Positions 3,001 to 29,235 of a stretch of DNA of 44,148 bases are shown here, piece by piece; position 1 is the stretch's first letter; every line of letters begins with the position of its first letter. Source of the stretch: a virus; IMG/VR virus record IMGVR_UViG_3300009538_000031, positions 1 through 44,148 of that record; one strand, given 5' to 3'. The position numbers were made by a program, and so were the translations under genes. A model generated the notes under the pieces. The model was not told the origin of the DNA. It saw only the letters and a list, made by a program, of their open reading frames with translations, and made no database searches.

Positions 3001-3054
3001 TCGAGGAGGGCTTTCTTTCACAGAATGAACGGCAAGTCTATTCGCCATCGCCAT
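1..3054 (-). CDS. SNF2-family helicase with N-terminal PLD-type nuclease domain (3' end outside window)
   Basis: Open from ATG at 3054 to the window edge (1018 codons seen, no stop). All SNF2 helicase landmarks are readable: Walker A DEVGMGKT at residues 319-326, DEAH at 428-431, SATP near residue 470, motif V TDAASEGLNLQ near 820 and motif VI QRIGRIDRIGQ near 850. Ahead of the ATPase, residues 169-190 read HAKFG...SGSGN, the HxK plus GSxN signature of phospholipase-D-superfamily nucleases. The family use ATP to translocate on duplex DNA; the PLD part would supply cleavage. A second in-frame ATG lies at 3048. The start overlaps the end of the methyltransferase gene by 17 nt, so it is the last visible gene of that operon. 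Inference: the effector of a restriction-like defence system. Domain calls are firm, the biological role is inferred. Confidence 0.9.
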   Translation of the reverse strand, partial: MAMANRLAVHSVKESPPRSSAKLPPGSLRRHTWKRFVRGPDPSLLEELYVPMLTESIRYDRCCAYFSSTVLSAAARGFGRLIERLEALGKKAPRPAVRLVVNEELLADDVRALTESGDTSKLEAVLQHRFKTPKELLEQQRLQMLGWLVKRGFLEVKVGVMRRGEGIVHAKFGIATDDRGDAIVFSGSGNESARGLLSNYERLEVSTSWEDQERYREYVQEFEDLWKGAHPDVHTVTLPEAIRLKLVKLAPKEPPIREPADALARQKAAMIWRFVVEAPFLPSGGLACDATALVDLWPHQRRVVEDTAGAWPSGRLLCDEVGMGKTIEAILVLRRLMAGRGIRRVLVLLPAGLLKQWQDELREKGGMVFPRLEGTNALVWPDERVERVAGLAEALKQDALLMSRETARTENNLPVLLTAEPWDLVLLDEAHAARRREQEEGEFNSATLLLALLRKLQLHRRARSFLFLSATPMQTHPWEPWDLLSVLGAGGAWLADFSGVRNFYAAAAALENGHCDLETARKAATLIAADPHFPALPGERLRLDAPEPVAKKLAFSPSTQRKDLASWLRQGSPLTRHMHRSTRHTLRRYHEMGLLTESPPQRIVEDIVFDYKERAEREVYDSISQYIEKRFQELEQEKPGKGFVMTIYRRRASSSPWALERSLERRREGLLRVAERKAYDVELEDKDVPEHLDHYDLPEREGAGRISAALPEDPQVARAELTEVDHLLSDLRLLGNRDSKRDRFFEILRQITDDGRSVLVFTEYTDTLEYLRDNLASYYGKNLGCFSGDGGQLFDAGQWKPVTKDAVTRALHDGALRVLICTDAASEGLNLQAAGAVINYDLPWNPSKVEQRIGRIDRIGQRLPAVRVVNLFLKDSVDDQVYRVLRKRCGFFEHFVGKMQPVLAKARRMLLGQEHPDLGNLESTADQIEQDPLASETYIESPAEARPGSLPVLTRQEVEKALAYLNADFGIQMNTGPDSGTYVLSGLGRTKVVVSARVEALERNPKALPLSPLEPCLR

Positions 3055-6049
3055 TTTCGGCCCCAGGCTCAGGCGCTTCCGATTCATCGTTGGATTCACT
3101 AAACAGCGACCCGAGATACGGTGACTTTTTTTCTGCCCAGTCTGGCGGCTCGATGTCAAACAGCGGCGTTAGCAATGCATGCCAGGCCTGAAACTCTGGG
3201 AACTGGGCCGCAGCCGAGGTTTTGCCCTGCTCGTGGCGAACGGCTTCCGGGGCGGCATGCACCAACCCTTCCATCAGCCGGGCAACGGGTGAATCCTTCG
3301 TCCAGTGTTGCTGACGGGCCAACGCCTTGGCCGAGCCGATCCCACTTGCGCCGCCGCCCGCCTCAAGGTGGCGCAGGGCCAACGCATGACAGGCGTCAAT
3401 CGCGGTGCGAAAGCTCGGGTCGTTTGGGTGAACCTTCAAGACCTGTTTTTTCGTGCGACGCTTTCGAATCGTTTCAGGCCCAAACAGCGTCTCGACCATC
3501 TCGTCTGGTTCAAGGGCCCGCTCCCGCCGGCGGTCCTTCGCCGAGAGCATCTGAACCTTGTCGGCGGACTTCGTCACCAACCCAGCGGCACTGAGTTGGT
3601 CGACATCCATCCCGACCGCCTTGCCGAGCAAACTCGCCTCGTTGAACCGAACCTCAACCGCCCCGAGCACATCCCAGCAGAGGAGCACGAACTGCCCTTC
3701 CGGCTCCACACCATCAAGACCTCTGGCGGTGAGCTGCTCCAGGCGCCATAGGGCGACGGCTTGCGACGCCTCATCAATCGCCCTGTCCACACCCACAGGG
3801 ACTGCTGTATCCGTTCGCACGTCATCGTATCGGCTGTAGACCTCCATCGCCGGACCAAAGGACCCGACGAGCTGGTCCACACGATTCAACCCCTCGCGTT
3901 CGAGCCGTTCGGCCGTGGCTCGGGCCTTTTGACGGATGGCTTGTTGCATGGCGCTGTCGAAGTAGCCGGTTCCCGCGCCCGCTGCACGCTTGCGCGCGAC
4001 GAGCATCACCGTGCTCTGGGCAGCGTTCTGCTTGGCTTGATGAAGACTATGTTCGCTCTCGGTCTTGACCGGCCAGGTCGCTGTGATGGTGAATCCCGCC
4101 TTGATCAGAGAAGTGAAGAGCGTCTCCCACGCCTCCTGCTTCTTGTGGGTGAACATCACCGTCAGGACTCCGTCGTCGCGAAGGATCCGGTGGCACTCTT
4201 TGAAGGTGTCTGTCATCAGGCGATGGTAGAACTCGTGAGCCTCTTTCCTGGCCTCCGCGGCAGATTTCTTTCCCCCGGCCCGGTAGCGGCTGATGTTGAC
4301 GACCGCTTCTTGATCATGCTCGCAGAGGTAAGTCGAAAACCACTCAGGGCGTCTATGGCCCTGCGTGCGCTTCAACCAAACATAGAAGAAGTCAGCCAGT
4401 TCCGAGTACTGGACGTTGTCGGCGTAGGGCGGATCAACAACGACTGCCGTGATTTCTCCGTCTGTAATCTGAGGTAGGTTGCTCGCTGAGCCTAATGAGA
4501 TTTCGACGGGCTGCGCGTTCTCGTGGTGCGGGAGTTTGCAGATCTCCTCGTACGCTTCGAGCACGTTGTCAATCGCCCAACTCAGACCTGTGCCTGCATT
4601 ACACGGAGCCATTTCTGCAAAGGTTATTTTGAAAGCGTAATCATGGCGGTCCATTTTGCCTTTGATGACGGCGTGCGTATTCTCCCAACGCGTTTGGTTA
4701 CAATTGTGATTGCCAAACTTGTCACACCCTAACGCCAGTAAATGCAGTACCGCTTCGCCAAGATCGTTGCCTTCGGCCTTCACGATCTCCAATCGCAGGT
4801 TGCGCAGCTCCTCCACCAACACCCCCATCGCCAGGAGCTGACGGGACGAGAACATGTCAGCCCAAGTAGTAATGCCCCTAGCGATTGGCTCGCCTGTCTT
4901 ATCTCCAATAGGAATTTCTTCTGTCGGAACGACATTCGCCTTCTCCCAAGCCGGCCGCAGCCGCTTAAATTCCTGCTCTGCCTCTTTGAGGGCTTTCAGG
5001 TCCTGCGGCTCAGGCGGCCGAAATTCCAAGCGGGTGTTCTTGAGGGCTACCGCATAGAGGGCGCTGTCCATGTTGCCTTGTTGGGCCATGGCTTTGATGT
5101 AGTCTCCTGGAATCTGGCGACCCGTAAAGAGGGACACCCCTTTGCCTCCCGAATAGGTCGGCGGTGGTGGTTCGCGCAGTTGTCCAGGCCCTCGGCCCAC
5201 CTGGCGGATCCGCACCGTCCAGGTGCCATGTTTGCTGTCCACAACAGGCTCCGCCACAATGGGGGTTTTCTTGTCCTCTTTCGGCTTCAGCAAGTACCAA
5301 TCAGGAACAAGCGGTGTTGGGTGGCCTGTCTCTGGACACGGAACCGTGCGGGCGAAAATATACGCGTGGACCATCGCAAACGGTTGTTTTGGGTAGAACG
5401 CGGCGAGCCTTTTTGCGCAGCGATCTTCCCAAACTTTAGCCCATTTGCGCGTCGCTTGCCCGAGCTTCTCACCGAACCGAAACGGGTAGTCCACCGTTGC
5501 CTCAAGGATCGTACAGGCAACCGGGTTATATTCGTTCGCGTAGGCAGCTAGACCCAGCCGAGCCGCTTCTAACGGTATTGATCCGCCGCCAGCCATAGGA
5601 TCGATAACAGAGACTTGCTCACCCCATACACGGACCATTGCATCGCGGGCTGCGGCCAAGTCTTCTTCTCGGATGCCGCGCTTGAAAGCCCGCCCACAAT
5701 TAAAACCTCCCTCAACACGAACTCCTTGATCCATGAGACGCCGTATTCTCACTAGGTCGGCAGAGGAATGTCCGAATCCCAGCAACCGCTCGAATACCTC
5801 ACGCGGGAAGTCGGCTGGTAGGAGTGAGCCGAGGACGGCTGCGCGGGAAGCGGTCAGGGGCCGACGCGCCCACCAGACATGGAGATAGGTATGCGGCGCG
5901 AGCGCGCTAGCGCTTCCTCGCTCCCGCATACACTCCACGCCGATCGCAGCAGCAGGCAACCATTCTTCGATGAGTACGCGGGGGATTGCCCTTTGGGAGA
6001 CTGGCTGTTTGGCAGAATCGGCTTGGACTATCTGGTCAGGACGGCTCAT
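3038..6049 (-). CDS. DUF1156-type adenine-specific DNA methyltransferase
   Basis: 1003-residue protein. The N-terminus (VLIEEWLPAAAIG, then HVWWARRPL) is typical of DUF1156 methyltransferases. The SAM-binding motif I appears as VIDPMAGGGS near residues 148-157 and the catalytic motif IV as DPPY at 539-542, preceded by a hydrophobic strand. The order motif I then IV with a long insertion between them is as expected for large N6-adenine enzymes. The last third has no motif I can name and may recognise the target. It overlaps the upstream 142-residue gene by 4 nt (ATGA) and the helicase downstream by 17 nt, so the genes are translationally coupled. Inferred role: marks self DNA so that the ATPase/helicase partners act only on unmodified DNA. 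The target sequence cannot be read from here. Confidence 0.92.
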   Translation of the reverse strand: MSRPDQIVQADSAKQPVSQRAIPRVLIEEWLPAAAIGVECMRERGSASALAPHTYLHVWWARRPLTASRAAVLGSLLPADFPREVFERLLGFGHSSADLVRIRRLMDQGVRVEGGFNCGRAFKRGIREEDLAAARDAMVRVWGEQVSVIDPMAGGGSIPLEAARLGLAAYANEYNPVACTILEATVDYPFRFGEKLGQATRKWAKVWEDRCAKRLAAFYPKQPFAMVHAYIFARTVPCPETGHPTPLVPDWYLLKPKEDKKTPIVAEPVVDSKHGTWTVRIRQVGRGPGQLREPPPPTYSGGKGVSLFTGRQIPGDYIKAMAQQGNMDSALYAVALKNTRLEFRPPEPQDLKALKEAEQEFKRLRPAWEKANVVPTEEIPIGDKTGEPIARGITTWADMFSSRQLLAMGVLVEELRNLRLEIVKAEGNDLGEAVLHLLALGCDKFGNHNCNQTRWENTHAVIKGKMDRHDYAFKITFAEMAPCNAGTGLSWAIDNVLEAYEEICKLPHHENAQPVEISLGSASNLPQITDGEITAVVVDPPYADNVQYSELADFFYVWLKRTQGHRRPEWFSTYLCEHDQEAVVNISRYRAGGKKSAAEARKEAHEFYHRLMTDTFKECHRILRDDGVLTVMFTHKKQEAWETLFTSLIKAGFTITATWPVKTESEHSLHQAKQNAAQSTVMLVARKRAAGAGTGYFDSAMQQAIRQKARATAERLEREGLNRVDQLVGSFGPAMEVYSRYDDVRTDTAVPVGVDRAIDEASQAVALWRLEQLTARGLDGVEPEGQFVLLCWDVLGAVEVRFNEASLLGKAVGMDVDQLSAAGLVTKSADKVQMLSAKDRRRERALEPDEMVETLFGPETIRKRRTKKQVLKVHPNDPSFRTAIDACHALALRHLEAGGGASGIGSAKALARQQHWTKDSPVARLMEGLVHAAPEAVRHEQGKTSAAAQFPEFQAWHALLTPLFDIEPPDWAEKKSPYLGSLFSESNDESEAPEPGAENGDGE

Positions 6050-19794: not shown

Positions 19795-22700
19795 TCAGAA
19801 CCCCTTTGCGATCCAGTTGATGCTGCCTGCGACGTCGGTGCCAGTCCCCGGATCCCGCAGCTTCACCGTGAAGCTCGTCTTGGATTTCGCCGTGATGTAG
19901 GGGATGTAGGGGTTGTTGTTGGTCGTGATGCCAATCGACGGCGTCTGGCTGAAGTTCTTGCTGAAGGCGATCGTTGTCCCGGCGGCTGCGATCGAGACGT
20001 CGGTGCCGCGGTCGATCAAGTCTTTGACGTCCAGCTGCAGGTTGAACTCGTAGTTCCGGGCCGGAATGCTGGCCGTGTTGGTCTTGATGTGCACCCTGAT
20101 CTTGAAATAGCGCACGGTATAGACCCCTTCCGAAAAAGCCACGAAGGTCGAGGGGTTGCTGTTCGTATCTGAATAGGCCCACTCCACGCTGAAGGTGCCG
20201 TCCGGCAGCGCGTTCTTGTAGGCGACGGAGGCGATGGCGGTCTGGATCGAGCCTACGTCGAAGACTTCGGAGGTGTACATCTGATCCATCGTCGGACGCG
20301 AGAGCGTATCCCAGTTGAGGGTGCTTTCGAGCGTTTCCCAGGAATCGGTGTTGTTCTCGAGGGTCTTGACCGTCTTGATGGCGATGGCGGGCCGGTAGGT
20401 GCCGGTGGCAAACTCGTTCGTGAGGTCAATTTCCAGATCCGATGAGAACGCCCCGCCGCGCAAGCCCGCGTTGAAGAGGTCATACCGCAGCACGATGTTG
20501 CTGTCCGACGGGGCCGTCGCGACGAGCGAATCCGCCGCGTCATTGAGGCTGTAGTTTTGCGAGGCGTCGATCGCCTTGATGCGGTACGTCTTCGTGCCGG
20601 CGGCGAACTGCCGGATGCTGTACTTCGTCGCTTGAATGGGGCCGTCGACAAAGTTCGAGGTGGCCCAGGAGGTCCCGCCTTCCCGAATCTCATAGCCCCA
20701 GATGTCCACGTCGGGGTTCGGATTCCAGGTGAGGCGGATCTCATCGCCCAGCTGCGAGGCGTCGAATCCCGTCACGTCGAGCGGCTTGGCGGTGTCGCCA
20801 TTCACCACCAGGCTGCCGGAGATGGTACCGGTCGACTTGACCCCGAACTGGCTCACCGTCCGGACCTTCACCTGGTAGGCGGCGCCGACCTTCGCGCCAT
20901 GCAGGACGGCCTTCGCCGAGCCGGGGAAGGCCACGTCGCGCTCCTCGAACGCCCCGCCGTTCTCGCTCCACTCAATCGTGTAGTTCTGGAGGTTGAGCCG
21001 CTCCGGGGGTTCGGTCCACGTGACCTGGATGGTGCTGTAGAAGTTGCCGTCCACCTGCAGGAATCCGACCGCTTGTACCGCCAGCCCCGTCACATCGGCG
21101 ATCGGGCTGAAGGGGTTAGGCGGAGGCGTGTAGTTCAGCGTCACCGACTGCTGCTCCATCGTGTCGCCGAAGATGGAGGCGTTATAGGCCTTGCAGATCA
21201 GCTTGCGGGTGTGATCCTCGTTCTCCAAGATGCGCTGAACGCGGAACTGGTAGGCGGTCGTGCCGTCACCCAGGATCGGGTGGGTCACGCTGATCACGTC
21301 GCCCGGCTCAATCGCCAGCGCGTTCACGTCCGTCGTGAACGTCAGGGAATACCAGTTGACCTTGAGGTCGTTGGCGATTTTGGTGATTTCGCGGATGGTC
21401 TGTGTCTGGCGGCTTAAGCCAAGCAGATTCACTTCTCGCGGGACGATCCCGCGCGGATTCACGGCTTGATCGCTGAGGTCGTCCACCGCCACGCGGGTCC
21501 GCGCATCATTCCCGGCTGCGGTCGGATCAATGTAGACGCCGATGAGGCGGTTCGGGCGGTCGTCCTTCGAGTAGGTTTGATACTCCACCTCCCAGACCTG
21601 ATCATCGGTAAAGGCCTGCACCGGCGATTCCGATTTCTCGACGCGCAGGGAGAACTTGCGCCCGTCGGTGACGATAAAGCCTCCGAAGGTCGCCAGCATA
21701 TCCTGCAGATTGTCGAGCCATGGACGGGAGGCATCGATGATCATGTCCAGCCGGGCGCGCGGTTCCGTGGTCTGATCGAGATTCGTCACCGTCGCCTCGG
21801 CCCAGTCATACACCGCCCCGAAGCTGGCATCGTCAACCGCGGAGGCCGGAAAGCCGCAGCCTCCGCGCTCGCGGGTCAGGGTCAGGAAGTCGCGGATGAT
21901 GGCCGCTGGATTGCCGGACGCGGCTACCGCTGCGCTTGTCCAGTTTGATCCATTCCAGACGTTGATCTTGCGGCCGGTCACCTTACAGGTAATCACCGGA
22001 TCGCCGCTTAACTGTTCACTGGCCTGTAATGTCAGCCCGAGATAGGCGGTGTTCTTGAGGCCGACGACGTTCGTGCCAGCCGCCCGGCTATCCACTCCCT
22101 GCGTCGCCGTTCCGGTGTAGGCCGTATACGAGCAGCCGGTGAAGGTGGCGATGTCGCCACCGTTTAACTGGACTTCGGTAATCGAGCCCAGCTCGCCTTC
22201 TCCAATAACCACAAGTCGTTTCTGGGTCTGCGCGCCTTGCCCGCTATTCCAAATCTCATACGTCTGTAGCACGCGGATCCCCAAGCCGGAGTAGATCAGC
22301 GGCACGGGCGACTGGTTCGTGCGGATGTTCTGCGCCCCATCGAAGGCGTACCGGTTCGATGCGTCGAGTCCGGCCGCCGGCGATCCGTTGAAGTCGAACG
22401 ATTTGCGTCCGGCCGCCATCGCGCCGAGGCCGAAATGCACCGCCGTCGCAACCGCGGCACCGACAACAATGGCTCCAATAATTACCGCCCCGGTGCCGGC
22501 CACCGCTCCAAGAGTGACGGCGTAGCCGATCAATTCCAGCGCAATTAGGACAGGCGGGTGTCCGGGTGGCGCTTCGACGCCTCGCGTGTCCAACCAAATA
22601 CCATGCGTGCCACGCACCGCCCCTGCCAATTTCTCGCGTTTTAGGCGGTAGATGCACGACTTGTAGGGTATCCCGGTCGTGAGGATGCGGTCATAGCCGA

Positions 22701-23109
22701 GCCATACGCCCACGTGCAGTTGGTGGAGTTTGTTGTAGTACCACACGAGGTCGTTGCGCTTGAGGTCTTTGAGTTCGACGGTCACGCCAGCCTCTTGCAC
22801 CGCCGCCTCGTACCGCTTGATCACGTCCGGATCAACGTCTTCGGGCAGCGGCTGCCCGTCATCACCCTTGATGGCGACGCCCTGTTCGCGTAAGAAGTGA
22901 ATCGCCAGCGTGCGGCAATCGAGGCCGGTCTTCGGGTCGTTCCCATTGAGGACATAGGGAATCCCGATCCACTGGCTCACGTACGCCTCGTACTCCTGCT
23001 CAGTCATCGACCGGTAGGGAATCTCAGGCCCACCAGAGCCTAAGGGCTGTTGAGCACGTGAATCACCAGGGAGGAGATCTACCGGCTGTTCGATCGTTTC
23101 GGTCGTCAT
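19795..23109 (-). CDS. NlpC/P60-like peptidase fused to tail tip (gpJ-like) protein
   Basis: 1104 residues from ATG 23109, in a 4-nt overlap with the upstream stop. Residues 45-150 look like an NlpC/P60 cysteine peptidase: Cys65 in TGLDCRTL and His132 in LHVGVWLG. A strongly hydrophobic stretch covers 186-230. The remainder matches tail tip attachment proteins: DGAQNIRTNQSPVPLIYSG, the RFSLRVEKS/VEYQTYSKDDRPNR region, and LAIEPGDVISVTHPILG. FN3-like modules lie near 668-770 and 775-865. In lambda the peptidase (K), hydrophobic I and J are separate genes; here they look fused. Role: cell-wall entry and receptor contact. Confidence 0.85.
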   Translation of the reverse strand: MTTETIEQPVDLLPGDSRAQQPLGSGGPEIPYRSMTEQEYEAYVSQWIGIPYVLNGNDPKTGLDCRTLAIHFLREQGVAIKGDDGQPLPEDVDPDVIKRYEAAVQEAGVTVELKDLKRNDLVWYYNKLHQLHVGVWLGYDRILTTGIPYKSCIYRLKREKLAGAVRGTHGIWLDTRGVEAPPGHPPVLIALELIGYAVTLGAVAGTGAVIIGAIVVGAAVATAVHFGLGAMAAGRKSFDFNGSPAAGLDASNRYAFDGAQNIRTNQSPVPLIYSGLGIRVLQTYEIWNSGQGAQTQKRLVVIGEGELGSITEVQLNGGDIATFTGCSYTAYTGTATQGVDSRAAGTNVVGLKNTAYLGLTLQASEQLSGDPVITCKVTGRKINVWNGSNWTSAAVAASGNPAAIIRDFLTLTRERGGCGFPASAVDDASFGAVYDWAEATVTNLDQTTEPRARLDMIIDASRPWLDNLQDMLATFGGFIVTDGRKFSLRVEKSESPVQAFTDDQVWEVEYQTYSKDDRPNRLIGVYIDPTAAGNDARTRVAVDDLSDQAVNPRGIVPREVNLLGLSRQTQTIREITKIANDLKVNWYSLTFTTDVNALAIEPGDVISVTHPILGDGTTAYQFRVQRILENEDHTRKLICKAYNASIFGDTMEQQSVTLNYTPPPNPFSPIADVTGLAVQAVGFLQVDGNFYSTIQVTWTEPPERLNLQNYTIEWSENGGAFEERDVAFPGSAKAVLHGAKVGAAYQVKVRTVSQFGVKSTGTISGSLVVNGDTAKPLDVTGFDASQLGDEIRLTWNPNPDVDIWGYEIREGGTSWATSNFVDGPIQATKYSIRQFAAGTKTYRIKAIDASQNYSLNDAADSLVATAPSDSNIVLRYDLFNAGLRGGAFSSDLEIDLTNEFATGTYRPAIAIKTVKTLENNTDSWETLESTLNWDTLSRPTMDQMYTSEVFDVGSIQTAIASVAYKNALPDGTFSVEWAYSDTNSNPSTFVAFSEGVYTVRYFKIRVHIKTNTASIPARNYEFNLQLDVKDLIDRGTDVSIAAAGTTIAFSKNFSQTPSIGITTNNNPYIPYITAKSKTSFTVKLRDPGTGTDVAGSINWIAKGF

Positions 23110-24008
23110 GGGTTCACGCTGTCCACGACCGTCGGGAAGCCGTGAAAGTTCGCGGTGTTTCCGCTGACGGCATCGATTTCGGTGTAACGGCTCTTGCACT
23201 CATTGAATGTCTTGTCGCAGCCCCGTCGGATCTTGATCGCATCCCCGACCTGCGGCGTGTAGGTGAAGCCGAAGTCCACGACGGCGGTCTTCGTGCTCTG
23301 CGTCCAGGTAATCACCTTGCGGATCTGACCAATGTTCTGTCCGGAGGTGAACTCCAACTCCCCAATGGCGTAATACTTATTGGCGTTGTTCACCGTTGAG
23401 AGCTTGATTGAGGTCTTGGTCGAACCGGATGCCACCGTGTCGGTCTGCTCCTGTTTCAGCGTGGCCGCGCTGACCCCCGCCGCACACAGGCTGCCCGCGA
23501 AGGTCAGCGGGCACAGTCGGTCGATCTTGCGGCCGGTCTGGAAGTTGAGGTTGCCGATGGCTCCGGCCAGTTCCAGCTGGCAGACCTTCTCGGTGATCCG
23601 CACGCTCGCAATCGTGCCGTCGAGGATGATGACGGCATCTCCGGCGGCCGCCAGCGCGCTGAGGTCGATGTGGCGCAGGAGAATCCGCTTGTCGCGCATG
23701 AAGTCCGCGCCCTGGAAGAAGAACGCTTGAAACGTCCGGTTGATGTTCTCCATCTGCAATGTGAGCGCGCGCGTCTCCGTGTCGAGCACGTTGGTGACTT
23801 CGCTGCGCGAGACCGGCAGCGGGGTGTAGGTCTTCGAGACCCCATCCACGTTGAAGAAGGTGATCGGCACGTCGGTACCGATGGCATAGTGCAGCGTGGA
23901 GGCGTCATCGGCCGTCTGCGAGCCAAAGAACAAATCCAGCAGTTCAATGGGCTTGTTCTGATGCTTCGCCAGTTCGGTATTGAGGGCTGCAGAGGTGGGT
24001 CGGGTCAT
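23106..24008 (-). CDS. Distal tail protein, DUF2163 / phage BR0599 family
   Basis: 300 residues. The C-terminal signature GCDKTFNECKSRY...GNTANFHGFP is characteristic of phage BR0599-type proteins (also in gene transfer agents), and the middle holds CPLTFAGSLCAAGV. The conserved Cys pairs in related proteins carry an iron-sulfur cluster in lambda gpL; whether that holds here is inferred. It sits between the DUF2460-like gene and the tail tip, in the order usual for such tails. Confidence 0.85.
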   Translation of the reverse strand: MTRPTSAALNTELAKHQNKPIELLDLFFGSQTADDASTLHYAIGTDVPITFFNVDGVSKTYTPLPVSRSEVTNVLDTETRALTLQMENINRTFQAFFFQGADFMRDKRILLRHIDLSALAAAGDAVIILDGTIASVRITEKVCQLELAGAIGNLNFQTGRKIDRLCPLTFAGSLCAAGVSAATLKQEQTDTVASGSTKTSIKLSTVNNANKYYAIGELEFTSGQNIGQIRKVITWTQSTKTAVVDFGFTYTPQVGDAIKIRRGCDKTFNECKSRYTEIDAVSGNTANFHGFPTVVDSVNP

Positions 24009-25039: not shown

Positions 25040-25149
25040 TAGGGCGGCCCATTCCTAAAGAGCCAGGCGAAGAAGGCTCGACCGCCGAACCACAGGATCG
25101 CCAGCACGAGCACGGTCATCAGTACCCAATGAGGCATGTGCATGGTCAT
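25039..25149 (-). CDS. 36-residue single-span membrane peptide between tape measure and distal tail gene
   Basis: ATG at 25149 shares its bases with the tape measure stop (1-nt overlap) and the TAA at 25041-25039 shares bases with the start of the next gene. The product is MTMHMPHWVL, then a 20-residue hydrophobic helix (MTVLVLAILWFGGRAFFAWL), then FRNGPP. It fills the only gap between the two tail genes exactly. Small hydrophobic genes at this place are seen in many phages; its role is unknown. Confidence 0.65.
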   Translation of the reverse strand: MTMHMPHWVLMTVLVLAILWFGGRAFFAWLFRNGPP

Positions 25150-26798
25150 CAGACCCTCGTCGCCTGGCGCATCGCGCCGCTGTTGCGCTTGATCGCCTTC
25201 TGGAACATCGCCTCGACGAGATCGCTGTGCTGCGCCATGTGGTTGCGGAAGCTCTGGGCGTCGGTGGCGTTGATGTTCCAGTTGTTCACGATGACCATGC
25301 CTGGCGGGCCTATGGCAGTCCCATTATTCATCTGCTCGAGCAAGCCACGATTCTTCGACGTGGCCTCCTTGCTGACGACGAACTCTCCGGGCTGCAACGC
25401 GGCCAGCACCTCGCCGCCGGCGTGGTACTTCGGGAGGCCTCCGACGTAGCCGCCCTGGTGGAATGCGCCAATGAACTTGAAGGCTGCTTTGAACACGGAG
25501 CCAGGCCCGACGCCGAAGGGCGAGAGGATCGCAGCGATGACGCCCACGGCGGCAATGAAGGCGAAGAACTTGGCGATCATGGACGCGATCGCCTCGAGCA
25601 CCGACTTGGCGAACTCCTTGAAGAAATCTTTGGCTTTCACGGTGCCGTCGATCATGCCCTTAAAGAGGCTGGTAAAGTTCGACTCCAATGAGGCGATTCC
25701 TCCCGTAATGATGGACGCCATCTTGGTAGAAATATCCGTGAAGGAGTTCCAAAACTTGGCGACCTGATTGAACATATCCGTCGAAAATGAGGCCGCTTGA
25801 TCTTTCCCGTCCCTCATGGCAGTGGCGACCGCTTTCACAGCACTAATCGCGTGCTTCGCTCCTTCTTCCACGACGCCCCCGCCATGTGTCCATGTGGCTT
25901 CGAGTTTCTTGATGTTGGCATCGGCGGCATCGCCAAGGTCAACGATCTTCGCCGTCAAGGTCTGATGGAACCCGCGCACCGCATCCGCAGCTTCTCGATA
26001 ATTCCTTCCGAGCTGCCCTGGCAAATGTCCCAACGTGTCATAGAACTTAATGAGCCCCATCACCACCAGATCAATCGCCACCAACAACCCGGCCTTGAAT
26101 AACGTGACGAGCAATTGGAATGCCTCGACGGAGAGATCGACCGCCCGCGCGGTTTTCAGGATGGTATTTTCCCATCCCCCGAACACAGTGATGAGCGTGC
26201 CGACCACCAACGCAATCAGCGCCAACCACGGATGCAGGACGATAAACGCGCCGACCGCTTCGAGCGTGCGCCCGACCAACAGCGCAATATCAGCCACCAC
26301 TCGCAGCAGCAGCCCACTGACAAGCGACAGCACCCCACCCATCAGGACGACGCGAATGAGAAAATCGCGGGTCGGCGCATCCATGTTCTGTAAGGCGTCT
26401 TTGAGGGCGTTCATCACCTTGGTCAAATTATTCAGAACAGGGAGAGCAGCGGTCGCAATAATGATTTGAAACTTGACGGCGGCATCACTGAGGCTCCGGA
26501 GGTGATCGCGCACAGCGGGCACGTACTCGGCAGCGTTTTTGAAGGCGATGGCAAACGCCCCGACAATGACGGTGCCCATCGTCGTGAGTTCACGGCTGGT
26601 TGCCCGTACTGCGATGCCAAAGTCGTGAAACCCCTGGCCAATGGTTTGAATACCCGCACCGACCCCCTGCACCGCGGAGCGAACGCCAGCAGCGAGTTGT
26701 CCAAAAGTTCCCTGGATCCCCTGCACCGAAGCCTTAAGCGCTGCGCTGGCTTCGTCCCTGAACCGAAGAATCAAGGCGAGTTCGGCTGTCGTCGGCAT
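25149..26798 (-). CDS. Tape measure protein
   Basis: 549 residues from ATG 26798 (MPTTAELALILRFRDEASAAL). Tape measure features: an N-terminal long helical region, several hydrophobic spans (about residues 170-240 and 265-285), and the Gly-rich motif FHQGGYVGGLPKYHAGGEVL near residues 460-480 followed by LQPGEFVVSKEAT, common near the C-terminus of tape measures. The modest length predicts a short tail, in the range of 80 nm by the usual 0.15 nm per residue. The start lies inside the preceding gene (65-nt overlap). Confidence 0.88.
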   Translation of the reverse strand: MPTTAELALILRFRDEASAALKASVQGIQGTFGQLAAGVRSAVQGVGAGIQTIGQGFHDFGIAVRATSRELTTMGTVIVGAFAIAFKNAAEYVPAVRDHLRSLSDAAVKFQIIIATAALPVLNNLTKVMNALKDALQNMDAPTRDFLIRVVLMGGVLSLVSGLLLRVVADIALLVGRTLEAVGAFIVLHPWLALIALVVGTLITVFGGWENTILKTARAVDLSVEAFQLLVTLFKAGLLVAIDLVVMGLIKFYDTLGHLPGQLGRNYREAADAVRGFHQTLTAKIVDLGDAADANIKKLEATWTHGGGVVEEGAKHAISAVKAVATAMRDGKDQAASFSTDMFNQVAKFWNSFTDISTKMASIITGGIASLESNFTSLFKGMIDGTVKAKDFFKEFAKSVLEAIASMIAKFFAFIAAVGVIAAILSPFGVGPGSVFKAAFKFIGAFHQGGYVGGLPKYHAGGEVLAALQPGEFVVSKEATSKNRGLLEQMNNGTAIGPPGMVIVNNWNINATDAQSFRNHMAQHSDLVEAMFQKAIKRNSGAMRQATRV

Positions 26799-27072
26799 CA
26801 CGCGCGTCCTTGCGGGTGACCAAGGTGTCGAGATATTCCATGATCTCCATGAATAGCTGCGCCTGGTCGAGCACCCCACCCGGCACCGGCAACAGGCCGC
26901 GCTGCCAGTACCCGTACCACCGTACGTATTCCATGGCGACCGGATCCAGCCGCGCAAATGGACAGCCGGTAATGTCCCACACTTCCCCGGTGTCCTCGTC
27001 GGTGATCTGCAGCCACGGTTGAATCTCCCGCACGCATCGGCATCGCTCGTTGTTCAAACAACTGATCTTCAA
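26734..27072 (-). CDS. Tail assembly chaperone, downstream (gpT-like) reading frame
   Basis: 112 residues if started at TTG 27072; no ATG lies near. The frame is open upstream without a stop to the slippery site at 27096-27102, so it is best read as the -1 frameshift extension of the preceding chaperone, giving about 260 residues in total. Contains CRCVREIQPWLQITDEDTG and CPFARLDPVAMEYVRWYGYWQ typical of such chaperone extensions. The last 65 nt overlap the tape measure start. Independent translation from TTG cannot be excluded. Confidence 0.75.
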   Translation of the reverse strand: MKISCLNNERCRCVREIQPWLQITDEDTGEVWDITGCPFARLDPVAMEYVRWYGYWQRGLLPVPGGVLDQAQLFMEIMEYLDTLVTRKDARDADDSRTRLDSSVQGRSQRSA

Positions 27073-27083
27073 GCCACGTAACT

Positions 27084-27515
27084 CTACGATGAACCGAAAG
27101 GGCGCTTATCGTGCTCCTGTAAGGTGTTCTGTTTGCTGAGTTGGGTCGCCAACTCGGATAGTACCGTGAACGGCATCACATCGAGGACCCGATCCGGCAC
27201 CACCGCGTAGGACTTACTCCCAATCGGCAGGTGGTCGAAACTGTCGGCCATTGGCTTACCGTCGGCATCGAGAAAATTGACCCACCCACGCAGCCCGAAC
27301 TTCACGATCAGCCGTTGCCACGTGCCTGTCCGCAAGGTGTGGCCACTGGCTTCGTCCGGCTTCCCGTTCTCAACTACGACGACGGCGCGGTCGTTGATGT
27401 ATTGCCGGACCCGACCATCAATCACTCCGAGCACCCACTTGGTCGGCTGCTCGCTCTCGCGGTCGTTCTCGCAGACATATTCAAATGTCTGATCCGGGCT
27501 GATCGCCTTGATCAT
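27084..27515 (-). CDS. Tail assembly chaperone (gpG-like)
   Basis: 143 residues with GGAGAG before ATG 27515. Located between the tail tube and tape measure genes, the fixed position of gpG/gpGT. Contains KWVLGVIDGRVRQYIND and VMPFTVLSELATQL. The last codons CCT TTC are part of a CCCTTTC heptamer, three codons before the TAG stop. It would bind the tape measure during tail assembly. Confidence 0.82.
   Translation of the reverse strand: MIKAISPDQTFEYVCENDRESEQPTKWVLGVIDGRVRQYINDRAVVVVENGKPDEASGHTLRTGTWQRLIVKFGLRGWVNFLDADGKPMADSFDHLPIGSKSYAVVPDRVLDVMPFTVLSELATQLSKQNTLQEHDKRPFGSS
27096..27102 (-). other. Programmed -1 frameshift site CCCTTTC
   Basis: In the zero frame the minus strand reads C CCT TTC, the canonical X XXY YYZ form. 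A -1 slip gives CCC TTT CGG and continues open through TTG 27072 into the 26734 reading frame. The stop of the zero frame is at 27086-27084, nine bases after the heptamer. Confidence 0.75.
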
Positions 27516-27654: not shown

Positions 27655-27679
27655 GTGATCCTCCTGCTGCATTCCGTTG

Positions 27680-28297
27680 TTAGGCACGATGGGCCGCGCT
27701 ATGTTCTGCTGGCGTCATGACCCGAAGATTCTCAATCCTGTTGTCATCCGGGATGCCATTGAGATGATGAACCACCTCATCCGGTTGTAGTCGTCGACCA
27801 AGATGCTGTTCGACTACATATCGGTGCTCTTTGATTAGACCGCCTCGATTTAGCGAGTACTCTGGGAGATAGAGCCGACGGTAACCCTTACCGTCATAGC
27901 TGATCCCGCCACGCCAGCGGGAGGCATAGCGGCCTTGCTTGCCTGTCTCCTTCGTCCGGCGAGTCATCACGCTGTTGCGGCACAAGATGCTACTGATCCC
28001 TGGCACAGACATCCCCCATTGAGCAGCGAGTTCCTTCAACGTATTCCCTCGCTGGTATTGATTGGCGATCAACTGCTCCTGCGCCTGTATCACTTTTCGT
28101 TGTGGGTGAGTATCTCCATGACAGTGCGCTGTACTTTTTCTTCTCGGTTCGTCCCAACGATCCAAAACTCGAAGGATAGCTCCAGCAGTGACTTGATGAT
28201 GTTTAGCGACTGCTTCCAGTGATTCTCCAGACCGATAGGACAATACGATGGCGAGATCATCCCATTCGTTTAGTTTCCTGCACCGCTGTCGATTCAT
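27680..28297 (-). CDS. HNH homing endonuclease
   Basis: 205 residues. The C-terminus is a clear HNH nuclease: LQPDEVVHHLNGIPDDNRIENLRVM...HSAAH supplies the metal-binding His and the Asn. Two N-terminal HTH-like modules (SLEAVAKHHQVTAGAILRVLD and TLKELAAQWGMSVPGISSIL) would read the DNA. It starts in a 1-nt overlap with the tail tube stop. The stretch is visibly less GC-rich than its neighbours, as expected for a mobile insert. Confidence 0.9.
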   Translation of the reverse strand: MNRQRCRKLNEWDDLAIVLSYRSGESLEAVAKHHQVTAGAILRVLDRWDEPRRKSTAHCHGDTHPQRKVIQAQEQLIANQYQRGNTLKELAAQWGMSVPGISSILCRNSVMTRRTKETGKQGRYASRWRGGISYDGKGYRRLYLPEYSLNRGGLIKEHRYVVEQHLGRRLQPDEVVHHLNGIPDDNRIENLRVMTPAEHSAAHRA

Positions 28298-29235
28298 CAG
28301 GTCAGCTGCAGTGTCAGCTCATCGTCACCAGTGTTGTAGGCGAGGCTGAGCGGGATTTCCCACGTCTCGATCCCCTCCCGATCCCCTTGGCGAATGTCAT
28401 CGATCTCACACTTGGGTAACGTGATGGTCATGATGCTGCCAGCCGTCGCGCCCACCACGACGGAGAGTTGCCGCAGCGTGGCGTTCACCCAGTCGGTGAA
28501 CGCGTCGTAGGTCGCCACCGTGAAGGCTTCCGGGTTGAGTGTCGCAATCGCCTTGCGCGTCGTGACCGTGAAACCCTTGTAACCGTGCGTCGCGTTGATG
28601 TCCTCGCGGTTGGCGATCACGTTGCCGAGCGTGATGGTCAACTGCTGCACGACGAACGTGGCAATACTATTGAACGTGAAGGACGACCCTAAGACCTTCG
28701 GGGGCGCATTCACGTTCGTTTCATAGGTCGGCGCAGCCAACGCCGTGTCTGTCGGGACGAGGTAAATCCCGCGGAACGTCCAGCGGATCCTCGCCGGTTG
28801 CCCTGCCGCCAGGATCATCTCGAACGTCCCCACCGCCCCGGTCAGAATGTGCCGACGCCCATCGAAGTTCGCGTAGATCGTGACCGACTTCGCGCCCGTC
28901 CCGAGGCTGTTCGGTTTGTAGGTGACGGAGATGCCGCCAGAGATCGTTTCGGTCATGCTGCACGCCTGGAGCAACGCGCCGTAGCGCGCGGCCGTCCCGG
29001 CGGTACCTGAGCCGTAGAACTCTGTTTCAAACGTGAGCTCGTAGTACCGGCTCCCGAGCAGCCCTGGTGAGGCGCTGATCGTATCGCGCGAGAAATTGCG
29101 CTCCACCTTCGCCCCGACGGGATTGATCGTCGGATTGAACGCGGGAATCGCATCGCTGCCGACCACCGGCACCGGATCCGTCCCATACGTGGTTTCCACT
29201 TTTGCCAAGACCAACGCCCGTCGTCGTAAGCCCAT
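28297..29235 (-). CDS. Major tail tube protein
   Basis: 312 residues; GGAGG-rich leader before ATG 29235. Beta-rich with repeats such as TFETEFYGSGTAGTA, KSVTIYANFDGRRHILTGAVGTFEMIL, FTVTTRKAIATLNPEAF and GDREGIETWEIPLSLAYNTGDDELTLQL. The last segment is a hallmark of siphophage tail tube subunits of this length. It lies just after the hairpin terminator at 29261-29303 and is followed by an HNH gene and the chaperones. Confidence 0.8.
   Translation of the reverse strand: MGLRRRALVLAKVETTYGTDPVPVVGSDAIPAFNPTINPVGAKVERNFSRDTISASPGLLGSRYYELTFETEFYGSGTAGTAARYGALLQACSMTETISGGISVTYKPNSLGTGAKSVTIYANFDGRRHILTGAVGTFEMILAAGQPARIRWTFRGIYLVPTDTALAAPTYETNVNAPPKVLGSSFTFNSIATFVVQQLTITLGNVIANREDINATHGYKGFTVTTRKAIATLNPEAFTVATYDAFTDWVNATLRQLSVVVGATAGSIMTITLPKCEIDDIRQGDREGIETWEIPLSLAYNTGDDELTLQLT

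Follow-up and report, generated by a model that had tools for sequence, protein, structure and literature searches.

A predicted -1 frameshift at CCCTTTC in a putative tail assembly chaperone gene of an IMG/VR virus, with other heptamers at the homologous place in related phages

In E. coli dnaX, a Shine-Dalgarno-like stimulator lies about 10 nt upstream of the slippery heptamer. The class of frameshift considered here is already known from phage lambda, in which a -1 frameshift giving gpG and gpGT has been described (PMC5009743). Slippery motifs have been tested systematically in E. coli by Sharma et al. (2014; PMC4066793), who found H_HH.U_UU.Y among the most efficient classes and C_CC.U_UU.C among the motifs with high level frameshifting, in both cases for E. 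coli. The same study reported low efficiency for A_AA.A_AA.C and G_GG.A_AA.C, which are yet common in insertion sequences, and used a distance of 6-17 nt upstream as the criterion for a stimulatory Shine-Dalgarno (SD) element (PMC4066793). In the papers searched, no phage tail gene was linked to CCCUUUC or CCCTTTC as a frameshift site or slippery sequence.

The DNA analysed, referred to as the window, is the whole 44,148-nt stretch of the IMG/VR virus record IMGVR_UViG_3300009538_000031. Two overlapping frames on its minus strand, G and T, are very probably one gene read in two ways, with a predicted -1 programmed frameshift making G and GT as in lambda. The features are listed in Table 1. The original prediction had placed a CCCTTTC heptamer in the correct phase three codons before the zero-frame stop, and the minus-strand codons agree. 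The G frame ends ...CAC GAT AAG CGC CCT TTC GGT TCA TCG TAG, the zero-frame codons at the site being CGC CCT TTC GGT TCA TCG TAG, and the heptamer runs from 27102 to 27096. Read in the -1 frame, the same bases give CCC TTT CGG TTC ATC GTA GAG TTA CGT GGC TTG, or PF-RFIVELRG-L, which continues as PF-RFIVELRG-LKISC... and stays open until the stop at 26734. The open reading after the slip was thus as foreseen; the nine codons given for it are eight when the count runs from the heptamer up to the TTG at 27072. As had been stated, the T frame has no other nearby start than this TTG, and the slip product, put at about 260 residues, is computed at 260 aa (G residues 1-140 plus the T extension). Two further details were added by the present analysis. 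One is a -1-frame TAA immediately 5' of the heptamer (GATAAG), which limits the shared stretch of the two frames to 22 nt; the other is an AGGAG at 27118-27114. Sequence, phase and open frames are all read directly from the DNA. CCCTTTC occurs once in the 44-kb window when both strands are scanned, and Rfam gave no match around the slip site.

Table 1. Features of the G/T region and its neighbours in the window (positions are those of the window)
Feature	Position	Strand	Remark
G, putative tail assembly chaperone, zero frame, 143 aa	27084..27515	minus	predicted fold, pLDDT 80
Slippery heptamer C_CCU_UUC (CCCTTTC)	27096..27102	minus	in phase with G; sole copy in window; kept in L014
AGGAG, Shine-Dalgarno-like, candidate slip stimulator	27114..27118	minus	11 nt upstream of heptamer; kept in L014
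Two-frame overlap, 22 nt	27084..27105	minus	starts right behind the -1-frame TAA and ends with the zero-frame TAG
T extension in the -1 frame, 120 aa beyond the slip	26734..27095	minus	relatives with same frame relation
TTG, sole nearby start in T frame, judged not the entry point	27070..27072	minus	GCG in L014
Tape measure protein gene	25149..26798	minus	PHROG tail length tape measure families, E 1.3e-12
Tail tube protein gene, preceding G	28297..29235	minus	PF18906 Phage_tube_2, E 4.3e-14

The genes of the region follow in the order tube, an HNH gene, G, T and tape measure, with the G/T pair directly upstream of the tape measure gene; the window also encodes portal, protease, capsid and tail-tip proteins. 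AAGGAG precedes the ATG of the G frame (27515-27084), and the tape measure ATG at 26798, with AAGGA upstream of it, falls inside the end of T. As in lambda gpG/gpGT, an in-phase X_XXY_YYZ lies near the end of the first ORF between the tube and tape measure genes, the -1 extension lacks a start of its own, and a short and a long product with a common N-terminus are predicted. Unlike lambda, the heptamer is CCCTTTC in place of GGGAAAG, the T domain contains cysteines, and G and T match no known chaperone family of Pfam or PHROGs. In lambda the two products stand in a ratio of 30:1. Compared with a dnaX-type signal, the window is alike in its SD-like element about 10 nt upstream of the heptamer, but it has another heptamer and no detected downstream stimulatory hairpin, and its slip product is longer, not shorter.

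Searches of Pfam and PHROGs gave no usable family match for G, T or six relatives, and a PDB sequence search returned no match to G, while its matches to T looked like chance. A sequence match to a catalogued chaperone family is usual for such proteins and is not strictly defining, as tail chaperones diverge widely. Foldseek comparison of the predicted G model with the PDB yielded a single match above probability 0.03, the HK97 tail assembly chaperone 2ob9, and this match was weak (E 0.55, probability 0.38, TM 0.35/0.44). A viral structure library returned several proteins named tail assembly chaperone, the best with E 4e-4 and 3e-3 at probability 1.00. The predicted T model was poor (pLDDT 56). 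Gene order and the similarity of the predicted G fold are direct observations, and together they support the lambda G/GT logic that had been proposed for this pair.

Relatives of both proteins were found in other phages. Searches with G led to Rhizobium and Agrobacterium phages at 28-31% identity, and those with T gave weak matches in Agrobacterium JP1, Rhodobacter RcZahn and Alteromonas P24. The links among the alphaproteobacterial phages become firm through intermediate sequences; that to P24 is weak by sequence and also rests on the shared layout. Scans of genome contigs found no relatives. Homologous G and T with the same frame relation occur in Rhizobium phages RHph_I4, L338C, P11VFA and TM16, Agrobacterium JP1, Rhodobacter RcZahn and RcTiptonus, and Alteromonas P24. 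Each has one in-phase heptamer at the same place, but this is GGGAAAC, AAAAAAC or AAAAAAG and not CCCTTTC. The census, which includes Rhizobium, Agrobacterium, Rhodobacter and Alteromonas phages, covered 24 distinct loci (the window and 23 relatives) after removal of duplicates, and exactly one in-phase heptamer was present at the homologous place of the G/T overlap in 24/24; these loci are related by descent and hence are not independent trials. The heptamers were CCCTTTC in 2 loci, GGGAAAC in 3, AAAAAAC in 17, AAAAAAG in 1 and AAAAAAA in 1, and the near-identical P24 group (L044-L050) agreed. Most of the AAAAAAC loci came from a scan with two peptide patterns, KKLRLGV, which includes the heptamer region, and AIRLMP[ED]R, which lies outside it; ten distinct loci do not match KKLRLGV and were therefore found through the pattern outside the heptamer. 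The strength of the census is that the property of an in-phase heptamer is kept while its letters change. A stop in the -1 frame between the heptamer and T, which the original prediction had named as evidence against itself, was found in none of the relatives examined.

The closest independent relative is the contig L014; another, L002, is identical to the window across the G/T region and was excluded as independent evidence. L014 is 58% identical in G, and in T 88% identical over the best segment and 84% overall. It retains the in-phase CCCTTTC, the invariant block AAGCGCCCTTTCGG and the AGGAG at equal distance, with the G stop shifted. The suggested check of heptamer conservation in homologues thus came out in favour of the site: CCCTTTC itself is shared with only one independent locus, L014, and in each of 22 more distant loci its position is occupied by a different in-phase heptamer. 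This conservation is directly observed, as is the coding evolution of the -1 frame. Between the window and L014, differences in the T frame fall 12/4/35 at codon positions 1/2/3. For eight codons that follow the G stop and precede the first ATG, six relatives, namely those whose G stops directly after the heptamer, give 29/9/63. In both comparisons most changes are at third positions, and the sequence beyond the slip site evolves as protein-coding sequence of the -1 frame.

These data bear on the best of the rival explanations, in which no frameshift occurs and T is a gene apart from G, translated from TTG 27072 through coupling to termination at the G stop. The TTG does stand 30 nt after the start of the heptamer with a weak GAG upstream, and some relatives, such as RcZahn with its gene 28, have been annotated with a separate second gene. 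In L014 the TTG is replaced by GCG, and five relatives (L005, L009, L017, L037 and L038) have no ATG, GTG or TTG in the first 24 codons after the slip; both observations contradict initiation at TTG only, the other outcome that would have counted against the original prediction. In addition, the codons 5' of the TTG are constrained as -1-frame protein, and the in-phase heptamer is always present in the census loci. Ribosomes must enter T from upstream, because of the coding constraint on the -1 frame and the lack of a usable start in the five relatives. A separate start of T is therefore highly unlikely. Slippage of RNA polymerase in place of the ribosome would fit the six-A run of most relatives. 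Runs of three bases are too short for polymerase slippage, and CCCTTTC and GGGAAAC, which have only such runs, occupy the same place, which makes this reading extremely improbable. A chance heptamer between neighbouring genes is just as hard to credit. In the predicted genes of the window, any X_XXY_YYZ stands in phase at 15/11,879 codon positions, a rate that gives ~0.75% for the six positions of a 22-nt overlap and would allow chance at one locus, but CCCTTTC is kept in L014, and all relatives have other heptamers in its place. Two overlapping frames would also result from a sequencing or assembly indel that split one ordinary gene, an explanation of negligible probability, since the same frame relation in L002, L014 and 22 other distinct loci, including isolated sequenced phages, refutes it.

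With frameshifting preferred over these alternatives, the elements that may stimulate it can be compared. The AGGAG lies 12 nt before the second base of the heptamer and so falls within the 6-17 nt SD criterion. This criterion is lax, being satisfied at 20.6% of codon positions; an exact AGGAG 8-14 nt upstream occurs at only 1.3% of codon positions in the genes of the window. RNA folding downstream of the heptamer, which had been proposed as a check, did not reveal structure beyond that of shuffled sequences in the window (z 0.87, -0.12) or in L014 (z -0.21), a result that does not refute the slip. Folding z was negative in 17/18 other relatives folded, down to -5.6. A common hairpin begins 8 nt after the heptamer with 93% of cells paired (15 AAAAAAC-class sequences, one of them AAAAAAA), and two of its pairs are changed on both sides; these counts coincide in part with coding constraint and are no more than suggestive. 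There is an apparent exchange of stimulators, an upstream SD element in the window clade versus a downstream hairpin in the relatives, and the type with strong heptamer and SD element rests on one clade of two loci.

Under the frameshift reading, most ribosomes would read G (143 aa) and end at the TAG. A minority would slip back by one base, with tRNA-Pro on CCU and tRNA-Phe on UUC re-pairing on CCC and UUU, and would continue in the -1 frame to give GT (260 aa). Both the slippage and its level are predictions. Base pairing between 16S rRNA and the AGGAG 11 nt upstream is probable and would aid the slip. By analogy with lambda, G would coat the tape measure protein during assembly, and GT would recruit tail tube subunits through its T part.

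What is modestly new is a chaperone family lacking a Pfam or PHROGs model, the presence of CCCTTTC in it, and the possible exchange of stimulators. CCCTTTC, efficient in E. coli tests, joins the natural candidate sites in a tail chaperone gene. A wider reading is offered tentatively, as one that we hold to be slightly short of evenly balanced. It takes G and T as an undescribed tail chaperone family with a cysteine-bearing T, in which phages of several bacterial groups have retained the slip but rebuilt its signal, with a strong heptamer plus upstream SD-like element and no hairpin in the window clade and a weak AAC-ending heptamer plus downstream hairpin in most relatives. If this is true, the family would form a natural series for studying how the parts of the signal can be replaced at a constant required slip level. 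It also lends itself to testing for a trade-off between heptamer strength and stimulators that keeps the product ratio constant.

The analysis identifies a putative tail chaperone pair in the window phage. The relatives extend this to isolated phages, for which the records retrieved give the G and T ORFs as separate genes or leave T without annotation. The published description of RcZahn reports no clear evidence for a frameshift (PMC8601537). That statement probably needs revision, because A_AAA_AAC stands in phase at the end of gene 27 (L008:2821-2827, RcZahn 23927) and opens gene 28. In Alteromonas phage P24, the T extension (L009:2872-3183) is unannotated; slipping by -1 at AAAAAAC would lead into it, and none of its first 24 codons is a start. 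In Rhodobacter phages RcTiptonus and RcDurkin, the gene annotated as tail assembly chaperone has an in-phase AAAAAAG (L017:1950-1956) about 28 codons from its stop, and this heptamer opens the whole T frame.

Several further observations were made on the family and on the window. The cysteines of the T domain are conserved as C-x2-C, GC and CP in most relatives (alignment A9), those of the window being C15, C21, C23 and C47, and they possibly form a metal site. Elsewhere in the window, AAAGGGG is in phase at 19807 (minus), just before the stop of 19795-23199, and AAAAAAG is in phase at 3131 (minus), about 29 codons before the stop of 3038-6049. The HNH endonuclease gene at 27680-28297 (minus) sits between the tail tube gene and G. 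About 650 nt that include it (27665-28318) are missing from the related contigs L014 and L011, and the gene is likely a mobile endonuclease insertion. The near-identical contig L002/L016 matches the window at 99.2% over the stretch that starts with the tube gene and closes with the tape measure gene, and at 77-80% thereafter, a drop that marks a sharp recombination junction at about 25165, before the tail-tip genes.
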